46,756 nt of DNA from an uncultured Gammaproteobacteria bacterium (lineage in GTDB: Bacteria; Pseudomonadota; Gammaproteobacteria; SZUA-152): the NCBI GenBank assembly GCA_913009875.1, contig CAJVYS010000009.1, positions 1-46,756 on the forward strand, read 5' to 3'. A program made the position numbers and the translations under genes. The notes beneath the pieces were generated by a model. That model was not told where the DNA came from, made no database searches, and saw only the letters and a list, made by a program, of their open reading frames with translations. Below, in pieces: positions 3,509 through 20,975 of this stretch; the stretch's first letter is position 1; the number at the start of each line of letters is the position of its first letter.

Positions 3509-6500
3509 CTATTCACTATGGGCAGGTTCATCCAATGGCCCGAAGAATGCGTCCAGATCCTGTTCATTCCATTGCAATTCATTGTTGCCGTCCGGCTGAT
3601 ACAGACCGTCGGCCAGGGCCTGTTTGCGTTGTTGCATGGCGTGGATTTTTTCTTCCAGGGTTCCTTCGCAAATCAGCTTGTAGACGAAGACGACCTGTTG
3701 CTGGCCGATGCGGTGGGCGCGGTCGGTGGCCTGACGTTCTACGGCGGGGTTCCACCAGGGATCGTAGTGGATGACGGTGTCGGCACGGGTGAGGTTGAGT
3801 CCGACGCCGCCGGCCTTGAGGCTGATCAGAAACAGTGGTATCTCGCCCGCCTGGAATTGCCCCACGGGCTTTTCCCGGTCACGGGTCTGGCCGGTGAGTT
3901 TGACATAGGCGATGCCGGCGTTTTTCAATTCGTCTTCAATCAGTCTCAGCATGCCGGTGAATTGCGAAAACAATAAAATACGCCGGCCTTCTTCGACCAT
4001 TTCCGGTAGCAGTTCCATGAGCAGGGTGAGTTTTGCCGATTGCTTGACCTTTTGCGCGCTTTCCAGTTTCACCAGGCGTGGGTCACAGCAGACCTGACGC
4101 AGTTTCAACAGGGCGTCCAGCACCACGATGTGGCTACGGCCCATGCCCCGGCGTTCGATTTCCTCGCGTACCCGGCGGTGCATGGCCAAGCGCACGGTCT
4201 CGTAGAGTTCCCGCTGTTTTCCTTCCAAGACCACGGTCTGGATGATTTCTGTTTTCGGTGGCAGTTCCGTGGCCACTTGCTGCTTGGTGCGGCGCAACAG
4301 GAAGGGGCGAATACGGCGGCTGAGTCGCTCCGCAGTGGCTTCGTTGGCCCGTTTTTCGATCGGTGAGCGGAAAAAACGGCGGAACTGTTTGCTGTCGCCC
4401 AGCAGGCCGGGTAGCAGAAAATCAAACAGCGACCACAGCTCGCCCAAATGGTTTTCCAGTGGTGTGCCGGTGAGGCACAGGCGATGGCGGGCGTCGATTT
4501 CACGCACCACATGGCTGGCCTGTGCCTTGGGGTTTTTGATCACCTGCGCCTCGTCCAGGATCAGCAAGTGAAACGCGTGGCTCAGCAGGCGTTCCTTGTC
4601 CCGGGACAAGAGGGGGTAGGTGGTGAGAATCAGATCGTGGTGGGCGATCTCGGCGAACTGTTCATGGCGGTGTGGGCCATGTAGAACCAGTACCTTGAGT
4701 TGCGGTGTAAAACGCTCGGCCTCGTTGCGCCAGTTGAACATCAGGCTGGTGGGGGCAATCACCAGGCTGGGGCGGTCGGCACGGCCCTGTTGTTTTTCCA
4801 ACAGCACATGAGCCAGAGCCTGCACGGTCTTACCCAGTCCCATGTCATCGGCCAGAATACCGGCCAGCCGGTATTCGCGCAGGAACTGCAACCAGTCCAG
4901 TCCCTGTTGCTGATAGGGGCGCAGGGTCGCCAGCAGGCCGTCGGGTGGCGAGACCGCCGGGATGCCGTCCAGCTCGCGCAGGCGCCGGGCCAGTTGCTTT
5001 GCTTCGTCGTCGCCCAGCCAGTGCAGGCCGGGGCCGTTTCCGTCATGATCCAGGGCCGTGAAACGCGCCAGTTGCACGCGGTTGAGGTGTAAGTGTTGGC
5101 CTTCATCCCGGGCGACGCTGTCGACCATCTCCAGCAGGATTTCCAACAGGGGCAATATCCGTTTTGCGGGCAGGAGCAGTAGACGTTCGCCAAGTTGTTG
5201 CCCGGGCTGCTCGTCCAGTGGCTCATCGTCCGGCTCATTACCGGATTCATCATCTGCTTCATCAAACAGGGGGATGACAAAGTTTTGTGTGGTAATTTCT
5301 TCCGCATTCGGCAGGCCACGAGGGAAGTTGTGCAGGTATTCCAGCAGGGTGGGTAACAGATCGACGCGCCGGCCATCGATCTCCACCCCCAGGCTCATGC
5401 TGAACCAGTCCTGTTTCTCCAATTGATCGACGTCGCAATACCAGTGTGAGGCCTCGACCAGCTGGAAGCGGAAATTGTCGTATTCGATGCGCCAGCCCTG
5501 AGCGCGTAACTTGGGGATGCCTTCCATCTGGAAATTCAGCCAGTTTTCGGCATCGTTGCCGAAGTCATCGGATCCAAGAAAAAAACAATCATCGTGGGCT
5601 TGCAGATCCCAGGCTTCGCCTTCCTCGAAACCCCACTGGCACAATGTCTTTATCGCAGCCTGCTCGGTCTTTTTATCACGTGTCACCTGGGTGATGCGTT
5701 CACCATCGAAATACGTGGAGGAGCCCTGATACGCCAGGGGGATGCCGTCGTAATCAAAACTGAGACGGGCGAAGTCTTCATATTCGCTCAAGTCTCCCCA
5801 GTCGTGGTATTCAGCCGAGCTTAAACACAGGCAGGGCGTAGGTTTGGTTCGCGCTGCGGTGACGACGTCGAAGTGTTGCAGCGGCGGGATGTCGGCGTCG
5901 GGATAACGTTGTTGCAAATCGGCTTGCACGGTATCGGCCTGGCCGGCCTCCACGGCGGGCAGATCGAGCAGCTCTGTGACCAACGCCACCGGCAATCCAC
6001 AGTCCAAAATCCCGCATTGGCCTTGTTCACGATCCAGGTACCAGAGGGATGACAGTCCCAGTATCTCCAAGTTATCGTCCTCGGAGCGGAGTGCCCAGTC
6101 GCAGCACTGATTGCCGAAGTCATCGACCACCCAGTGCAGTGTTTCTGCACGCGCGGCGCCTTGTTTCAGTTGAGGGCCCCATTGGATGTCTTGCAAAAAA
6201 CAGCGTCCACTGGCGAGCATGGTCTCTAACAAATGACTGGATCGTGGGCCGCTGAGTAGGGGGATTCCCGTGGGATGCGCGCGCGGCAATTGATTCAGGG
6301 CATCAAGCAGCTCAAGATCGCCCGCTTCCAGAAAACGCGCCGGAGTCCGCTGAGTTGTCTGGCCGGGCTCAAAATAAGTACTCCCTGAATACGTCCCGTT
6401 TTTCAGGCGGCGTGCGGCGAAGGTCTCTATCAGCAGACCGTCTTCGCTGGGTTGTAAAACATACAGTAAGGCCTGTTGAGGGTTGGCTGCGGGCTTGTTT

Positions 6501-18774: not shown

Positions 18775-19221
18775 ATGAATGTCATTCTGTTGGAAAAAGT
18801 AAATAACCTCGGTGATCTGGGTGAGCAGGTCAATGTCAAGGCCGGTTATGGCCGTAACTTCCTGATCCCTCAGGGCAAGGCGGTATCTGCCACGGCGGAC
18901 AATGTGGCCAAGTTTGAGGCCCGTCGCGCGGAGCTGGAGAAGACCGCCGCCGAGAAGCTGGCCGCCGCAGAGGCGCGTAAGGTCGCCCTGGGCGAACTGA
19001 CCGTCACCATTGCCCAGAAAGCGGGCGAGGAAGGCAAGCTGTTCGGTTCCGTCGGCACGACCGATATCGCCAGCGCCATCACCGAGGCCGGTGTGGACGT
19101 CAGCAAGAGCGAGATCCGCTTGCCGGAAGGCGCCCTGCGTCATATCGGCGCATTCGAGATCGATGTCGAATTCCACACCGATGTGATCGCGACCATTGCG
19201 CTGGAAATCATTCCCGAATAA
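18775..19221 (+). CDS. rplI: 50S ribosomal protein L9
   Basis: [37 protein letters not shown]...[12 protein letters not shown]. Confidence 0.97.
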
Positions 19222-19246
19222 GTCCTTTTGGCAGTGAAAAAAAGAG

Positions 19247-19279
19247 GCTGGCGGTGGTCGCATCGCCAGCTTTTTTTTT
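19247..19279 (+). terminator. Rho-independent terminator after rplI
   Basis: GCTGGCG-gtggtcgcat-CGCCAGC followed by TTTTTTTTT. Confidence 0.85.
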
Positions 19280-19329
19280 GTCATTTTTTGGGCCGCTGAC
19301 AGCCCAATTCAGGTAAGATAATTCTATTA

Positions 19330-19569
19330 TCCTAGATTAATCAGTTGACCGCTTCGAGGTAAGTTTAAGTGCATGGTAATAAACGAATTTATCTAAAAGC
19401 CAGACTTCATCTGCCGGGTGAAAACGCTACGACCTGCCCAGTAGCTCTGAGTGCCCGCCTGGCTATGCCAAAAAACTCGTTAAGGAACAAGGCCATTAAC
19501 TCATTTTTTTGCTACGCCAGACGAACACTCAGAACCACTGAACAGGGCATTCAACTGATTAATCTAGGA
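19330..19569. other. 240-bp nested palindromic element 5' of dnaB (structured leader or MITE)
   Basis: Perfect 19-bp arms TCCTAGATTAATCAGTTGA (19330-19348) and TCAACTGATTAATCTAGGA (19551-19569), plus a long inner stem 19433-19463/19516-19546. Confidence 0.7.
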
Positions 19570-19571
19570 CC

Positions 19572-20975
19572 ATGCAAGAGTTAGCCTATCCCCCCGGAAG
19601 CATTGATGTGGCCACCGAGGCATTGAAGGTGGCCCCCCAATCCATTGAGGCCGAGCAGTCCGTGCTGGGCGGCCTGATGCTGGACAACACTGCCTGGGAC
19701 AAGATTGTCGATGCCATCACGGAAGAGGATTTCTATCGCCGTGATCACCGCCTGATCTTTCGTGCCGTCGCTGCGCTAGCGGCACGCACCGAACCCTTTG
19801 ATGTGATTACCCTGTCCGAATGGCTGAACACGCAGGGTTTGCTCGATGATGCCGGGGGTTTGGCCTATCTTGGCACCCTTGCCAAGGACACACCCAGCGC
19901 CGCCAATATCGGTGCCTATGCCGCCATCGTGCGTGAACGCTCAGTGTTGCGCCAGTTGATCAGTGTCGGCAATGAAATCAGCAGCAGTGGCTATCAGACC
20001 GAGGGCCGCAGCACCGAAGAACTGCTCGATAACGCCGAGCGGCAGGTGTTCCAGATTGCCGAGCAGGGCGCACGTGGCAAACAGGGGTTTGTCGCCATCA
20101 AGGATCTGCTGGTGAAGGCGGTGGATCGTATCGACACCCTGTTTCAGCAAGACAATCCCATCACCGGCGTGCCCACCGGTTGGAATGACTTTGATGAAAT
20201 GACCTCCGGCCTGCAACGTGGCGATATGATCATCGTCGCGGGTCGCCCGTCCATGGGCAAGACCACCTTCGCCATGAACATCGCCGAGCACGCCGCCATC
20301 AAGTCCGGTCTGCCCACGGCCGTGTTCAGTATGGAAATGCCGGGCGCATCACTGGCCATGCGTATGCTCTCGTCGCTGGGGCGTATCGACCAGCATCGCG
20401 TACGCACCGGCAAGCTGGAAGACGACGATTGGCCGCGCCTGACCTCGGCGGTGGGTCTGTTGGCCGAGGCTCCCATGTTCATCGATGACACGCCGGCACT
20501 GTCACCCAACGAGCTGCGCGCCCGCGTGCGCCGTCTGGCGCGCGAGCACGGCCAGCTGGGTCTTATCGTGATCGACTATTTGCAGTTAATGCAGGTGCAT
20601 GGCTCGTCGGAGAACCGTACCAACGAAATCTCGGAAATCTCCCGCTCGCTGAAGGCCCTGGCCAAGGAGATGGATGTGCCGGTGGTGGCCCTGTCGCAGC
20701 TCAACCGCAGCCTTGAACAGCGACCCAACAAGCGCCCGGTGATGTCTGATTTGCGTGAGTCGGGCGCCATCGAGCAGGATGCCGACGTGATCGTCTTCAT
20801 CTATCGCGACGAGGTCTACAACGAAGACAGCGACAGCAAGGGCGTCGCCGAAATTATTATCGGCAAGCAGCGTAATGGCCCCATCGGCACCACGCGCCTG
20901 ACCTTCCTCGGCCAGTTCACCCGCTTTGAGAACTTTATCCACGACGTCTATTCCGACGACGAGGGTTATTCATGA
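19572..20975 (+). CDS. dnaB: Replicative DNA helicase DnaB
   Basis: PQSIEAEQSVLGGLMLDN...AGRPSMGKTTFAMNIAEHAA...LIVIDYLQLMQ...SDLRESGAIEQDADVIVFIYRDEVY. Confidence 0.97.
   Translation: MQELAYPPGSIDVATEALKVAPQSIEAEQSVLGGLMLDNTAWDKIVDAITEEDFYRRDHRLIFRAVAALAARTEPFDVITLSEWLNTQGLLDDAGGLAYLGTLAKDTPSAANIGAYAAIVRERSVLRQLISVGNEISSSGYQTEGRSTEELLDNAERQVFQIAEQGARGKQGFVAIKDLLVKAVDRIDTLFQQDNPITGVPTGWNDFDEMTSGLQRGDMIIVAGRPSMGKTTFAMNIAEHAAIKSGLPTAVFSMEMPGASLAMRMLSSLGRIDQHRVRTGKLEDDDWPRLTSAVGLLAEAPMFIDDTPALSPNELRARVRRLAREHGQLGLIVIDYLQLMQVHGSSENRTNEISEISRSLKALAKEMDVPVVALSQLNRSLEQRPNKRPVMSDLRESGAIEQDADVIVFIYRDEVYNEDSDSKGVAEIIIGKQRNGPIGTTRLTFLGQFTRFENFIHDVYSDDEGYS

Follow-up and report, generated by a model that had tools for sequence, protein, structure and literature searches.

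The window analysed here, a contiguous stretch of 46,756 nucleotides from an uncultured gammaproteobacterium, carries on its plus strand rplI (18775-19221; ribosomal protein L9, TIGR00158) and, downstream of it, dnaB (19572-20975; replicative helicase, TIGR00665), the N-terminus of which is conserved in relatives. A terminator scan placed an intrinsic-terminator-like hairpin behind rplI at 19238-19279 (plus strand), and a long palindrome follows after this terminator, as the initial annotation had described. The outer arms of the palindrome (19330-19348 and 19551-19569) are perfect over 19 bp, the right arm stops 2 nt short of the dnaB ATG at 19572, and the inner stem reported at 19433-19463 and 19516-19546 exists and is part of the predicted fold; all three earlier observations were confirmed. 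The proposed extent of 240 bp was borne out in part. The palindrome itself is well supported by the plus-strand fold (MFE -88.8 kcal/mol, z = -8.2, a level reached by no dinucleotide shuffle out of 200), and the boundary shifts inwards to 19331-19568 by comparison with other copies. The earlier view was confined to the plus strand; to this we add that the opposite strand, antisense to dnaB, folds better still (-108.7 kcal/mol, z = -9.4).

Copies from the same genome and from the genus align exactly at these positions and define an element of 238 bp, the outermost T/A pair of the 19-bp arms being flanking DNA. The element ends in perfect 18-bp terminal inverted repeats, CCTAGATTAATCAGTTGA on the left (19331-19348) and TCAACTGATTAATCTAGG on the right (19551-19568; both as read on the plus strand), and contains no transposase. 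A BLAST search within the genome (3.56 Mb, 211 contigs), which had been suggested on the grounds that multiple copies would indicate a MITE, returned at least eight copies: that of the window, six others of full length and one truncated to 131 bp. The further copies, at least seven, are 83-91% identical to the window copy and align over 19331-19568. Exact 5-bp target duplications (ttgaa, ataat, gtgac, tttac, ttaaa and ttcaa; mostly of the type WTNAW) flank 12 of the 16 other full-length genus copies. Around the window copy no obvious duplication had been noticed earlier; a diverged one exists, with ATTAT at 19326-19330 and ACCAT at 19569-19573, the AT of the latter opening the dnaB ATG.

The site in front of dnaB is empty in each of the six congeneric species examined and in 12 further genomes of the same family (18 in total), with congeners reading, for example, TTCAGGTAAGATAATCCGATC/ATG, ...CCCGACC/ATG or ...CGGACC/ATG. 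The duplicated 5-mer corresponds to the last three bases upstream of the dnaB ATG plus its AT, which read ATCAT or ACCAT in the empty sites. If the target was originally ATCAT, one change on each side would explain the present pair; if it was ACCAT, two changes on the left would. Both flanks of the insertion match relatives that lack the element, which makes an assembly chimera at the junction unlikely. Short, multi-copy, framed by terminal inverted repeats and devoid of a transposase, the 238-bp element has the features of a MITE, and the family adds target duplications and empty sites, the window copy's own duplication agreeing in three of five bases. The palindrome before dnaB is one copy of a MITE, as the initial annotation had allowed, and not a leader specific to dnaB. 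Rfam covariance models gave no match to the palindrome at gathering thresholds or at E <= 10. An integron attC site, prompted by a GTTGAAC near one end, was dropped because no partner box was met on the other side.

Across the GTDB genomes, the exact 19-mer occurred in 29 further stretches, nearly all from gammaproteobacterial MAGs, and no copy of the element was found in plasmid and phage collections. Class-wide searches showed that few genomes carry the family, yet these belong to several taxonomic families, with 72-81% identity and a nearly constant length of 233-238 bp. Alignment A1 comprises 17 full-length copies from four species. Two loci, L043 and L049, have one exact end each and no second end; the single 19-mer of L049, at position 3918 of a Patescibacteria MAG contig, is probably due to chance or contamination. 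Shorter elements of 162, 180 and 202 bp, with the terminal repeat of the MITE, other interiors and mostly attat/ataat-type duplications, occur in FCS_M_Gamma_062.3 (L032, L035, L038, L039, L042, L046, L048, L050, L051, L055 and L058), some of them adjoining 238-bp elements (L032, L058). Weak covariance-model matches in the congener G004 turned out to be another palindromic repeat, GACCTGAATCCGTG...CACGGATTCAGGT, which is present there in many copies (L166 and L177, about 1480-1670).

The strand difference in folding recurs throughout the family. The minus strand folds better in 17 of 17 copies (mean -118.6 versus -90.3 kcal/mol) and likewise in six diverged copies, and the consensus fold reaches -107.1 on the minus strand and -58.2 on the plus strand. 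This difference is carried by a rod hairpin of 122 nt (P2; 19429-19550, minus strand) with 49 consensus pairs and an A7 ... T7 terminator-like stem at its apex; the two small hairpins of the left arm, noted previously, are not the conserved part. Among 23 copies, six of them diverged and from other taxonomic families, 97.7% of the cells in the rod pair. Two-sided changes were seen in 20 of the 49 pairs (shuffle mean 5.8; 0 of 500 shuffles reach 20, a count that overstates independence because the copies are related), and in at most seven when the alignment was slid out of register. The covariation score of the rod was 0.264 versus 0.164, and covariance model R1 gave 129.6 bits on the minus strand and 67.5 on the plus strand at the window copy (about 121-142 and about 48-84 bits, respectively, on genus copies), the structure having been derived from the same sequences that were scored by covariation and by R1.

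The wobble pairs of the rod favour one strand. Read as the minus strand, G-U occupies 164 cells and A-C 7; the corresponding numbers are 26 versus 7 for columns (p = 0.0013, again overstating independence between related copies) and 8 versus 0 for majority pairs. The terminal stem functions as DNA, and there G-U and A-C are about equally frequent. These patterns suggest a strand-specific structured RNA carried by the family, which appears to maintain the 122-nt rod, as RNA or as single-stranded DNA, on the strand antisense to dnaB; folding of single-stranded DNA also tolerates G-T. A remaining alternative for the wobble bias is a mutation bias linked to transcription. It is also conceivable, though we consider it unlikely, that the rod is a palindrome in decay, preserved by hairpin-templated correction in replication rather than by selection on an RNA. 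MITEs are commonly palindromic, and quasi-palindrome correction can create two-sided changes such as those counted above. Symmetric decay, however, predicts similar numbers of G-U and A-C on either strand, which fits neither the large excess of G-U in the rod nor the confinement of this bias to the rod, the terminal stem being free of it.

A candidate source of the mobilising enzyme lies in a SZUA-41 genome (G097), where one end (IRR) of an insertion sequence (IS) of 1685 bp (L128:1239-2923) agrees with the MITE end at 18 of 18 positions and the other end at 14 of 18. The IS encodes a DDE transposase of 516 aa that matches Pfam DDE_Tnp_1_4 and DDE_Tnp_1; its best NCBIfam match is IS1380 (NF033539, 4.5e-38), with 130.9 bits, below the cut-off of 180, and it shares 24-27% identity with annotated IS1380 transposases. 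Its closest plasmid relative, from Polaromonas, is 45% identical and lies between the ends CCTATTTTCGGCAGTTAG / CTAACTGCCGTTTCTAGG, which are flanked by an exact duplication, TTAAA/TTAAA. The end variant of the MITE in other taxonomic families, CCTAGATTCCGCAGTTG, resembles these Polaromonas ends. ISEcp1, a member of the IS1380 family, has the IRL CCTAGATTCTACGT and 5-bp duplications (PMC7864471), and shares with the MITE ends starting CCTAG(ATT) and the length of the duplication.

Since an IS end is identical to the MITE end, we consider an IS1380-type transposase, of the NF033539/PF13701-type DDE class encoded by the matching IS, the probable mover of the MITE in trans. Unlike members of the IS1380 family, the MITE has no transposase, and its interior shows no similarity to the IS, which rules out a simple internal-deletion derivative, as the ends alone match. 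In the MITE's own draft genome no IS with MITE-type ends was found; its only near-full-length IS1380-type transposase gene (L059; G000:C47:24139-25383) has an in-frame TAG, and neither this gene nor the other IS1380-type genes inspected have matching ends, which only L128 does. The literature searched contained no IS1380-derived MITE, and the family, a MITE with IS1380-type ends, appears to be undescribed.

We are highly confident that at dnaB this MITE, with an IS1380-family transposase as its probable mover in trans, inserted into a WTNAW target overlapping the start of the gene. The ancestral target was ATCAT|G or ACCAT|G, overlapping the start codon, and the 5-bp duplication re-created the start codon at the right end of the element, so that the DnaB protein was unharmed. 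Among the genus species examined, the insertion appears at dnaB in a single species or lineage. Proximity of the right end to start codons is a wider property of the family: among about 40 copies, taken in the orientation of the window, a few of them missing a flank or having ends that are poorly placed, mechanical start calls put a start codon no more than 20 nt from 13 right ends and from one left end (p = 0.0018). Distances from right end to start are 0 for an M23 peptidase, 0 or +3 for moaE, +3 for dnaB and for a ParA-like ATPase after motB, +4 for a glycosyltransferase, +14 for cheD (after cheR), +15 for glmU, and 0 for a SpoU methylase with a TTG start; Pfam support is confined to the genes in this list. 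At L069:1480-1760, a copy apparently follows directly on the ATG of a gene for a SpoU-type rRNA methylase, and this ATG has likely been cut off to the left of the element, leaving the TTG at its edge as the start. ATNAT(G), ATGAN and TTGAA(TG) all agree with the WTNAW target, and insertion at a start codon would be tolerated because the 5-bp target duplicates it. The bias towards the right end needs an extra reason, which may be avoidance of the strong rod in a leader, or a promoter at the right end.

In MITE-free relatives, the sequence upstream of dnaB is constrained in position. By eye, 17 of the 18 same-family genomes show a recognisable TTCAGGTAANATRAT-like motif, without gaps, at a distance of 6 nt from the dnaB ATG, and NATRAT stands at exactly this position in 11 of 18. 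In the rplI-dnaB intergenic regions of this gammaproteobacterial family (L090-L107), a TTCAGGTAAnATRAT-like motif keeps a fixed place, 6 nt from the ATG. The last base of a -10 element sits at -7 relative to the transcription start; if the motif is the ancestral promoter, the dnaB mRNA would therefore start at the A of the AUG and be leaderless. There is no Shine-Dalgarno site at normal spacing before dnaB in the relatives. In the window, the motif (TTCAGGTAAGATAAT, 19308-19322, plus strand, with the -10-like GATAAT at 19317-19322) is intact and lies 243 nt further from the dnaB ATG than the fixed 6 nt of the relatives, the insertion having displaced it by this distance. The predicted old transcription start would now fall at about 19329, with the MITE beginning 2 nt further on, and, if the promoter still fires, the MITE would make up nearly the whole 5' UTR. 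Transcription would now either include the MITE in a leader of 243 nt or restart near its right end.

It is possible that the window copy now serves as the 5' UTR of dnaB. A modelled leader has its AGG fully base-paired (unpaired probability about 0) and its AUG mostly open. Co-option of the right end as the dnaB promoter seems unlikely to us. The hexamer TAATCT, 6 nt before the ATG, retains a TAnnnT core at the spacing of the ancestral GATAAT, start codons cluster at right ends, and IS1380 elements are known to carry promoters that point outward (PMC9330008). Against this, a promoter scan of the region found no sigma-70-like site, the ancestral motif is still intact upstream, and the terminal repeat is the same at both ends, and so cannot alone explain the asymmetry in start codons. 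An evolved, dnaB-specific cis-regulatory leader that masks the ribosome binding site is very improbable: the right-arm AGGA lies 2 nt from the ATG, and the predicted mRNA fold pairs the AGG of this AGGA, but such a spacing is poor for a Shine-Dalgarno site, and the leader is refuted, on the grounds named when it was proposed, by the many copies with target duplications that adjoin unrelated genes elsewhere, before or after them, together with the empty dnaB sites in all 18 same-family genomes.

Two well-known bacterial repeats invite comparison, made here through reviews. ERIC, an enterobacterial MITE, is likewise intergenic and palindromic, forms a stable stem-loop when transcribed and has a reported orientation-dependent effect (PMC2229807). 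It differs in its ends and in its length of 127 bp, the MITE described here being nearly twice as long at 238 bp, with a 5-bp WTNAW duplication and start codons concentrated at one end. By description, the Correia/NEMIS elements of Neisseria are also mobile and palindromic, and are predicted to form double-stranded RNA when transcribed, a possible substrate of RNase III (PMC10969869). RNase III cuts the terminal repeats of Correia elements, whereas the conserved part here is an internal rod on one strand.

Tentatively, and as a reading that we regard as possible rather than probable, the family could be a mobile carrier of a functional strand-specific RNA, the 122-nt rod with its conserved apex, spread over several gammaproteobacterial families. 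By a target rule that rebuilds the codon, it would insert at start codons, with the RNA strand nearly always antisense to the downstream gene, and would repeatedly rewire gene 5' ends, among them those of essential genes like dnaB. The asymmetry between G-U and A-C offers a direct and testable case for selection on the RNA of a bacterial MITE. The insertion at dnaB, for its part, constitutes a clean natural experiment, in which the conserved 5' signal of an essential replication gene, fixed in position in relatives, has been shifted by 243 bp in one species and the intact empty sites of close relatives serve as the comparison.
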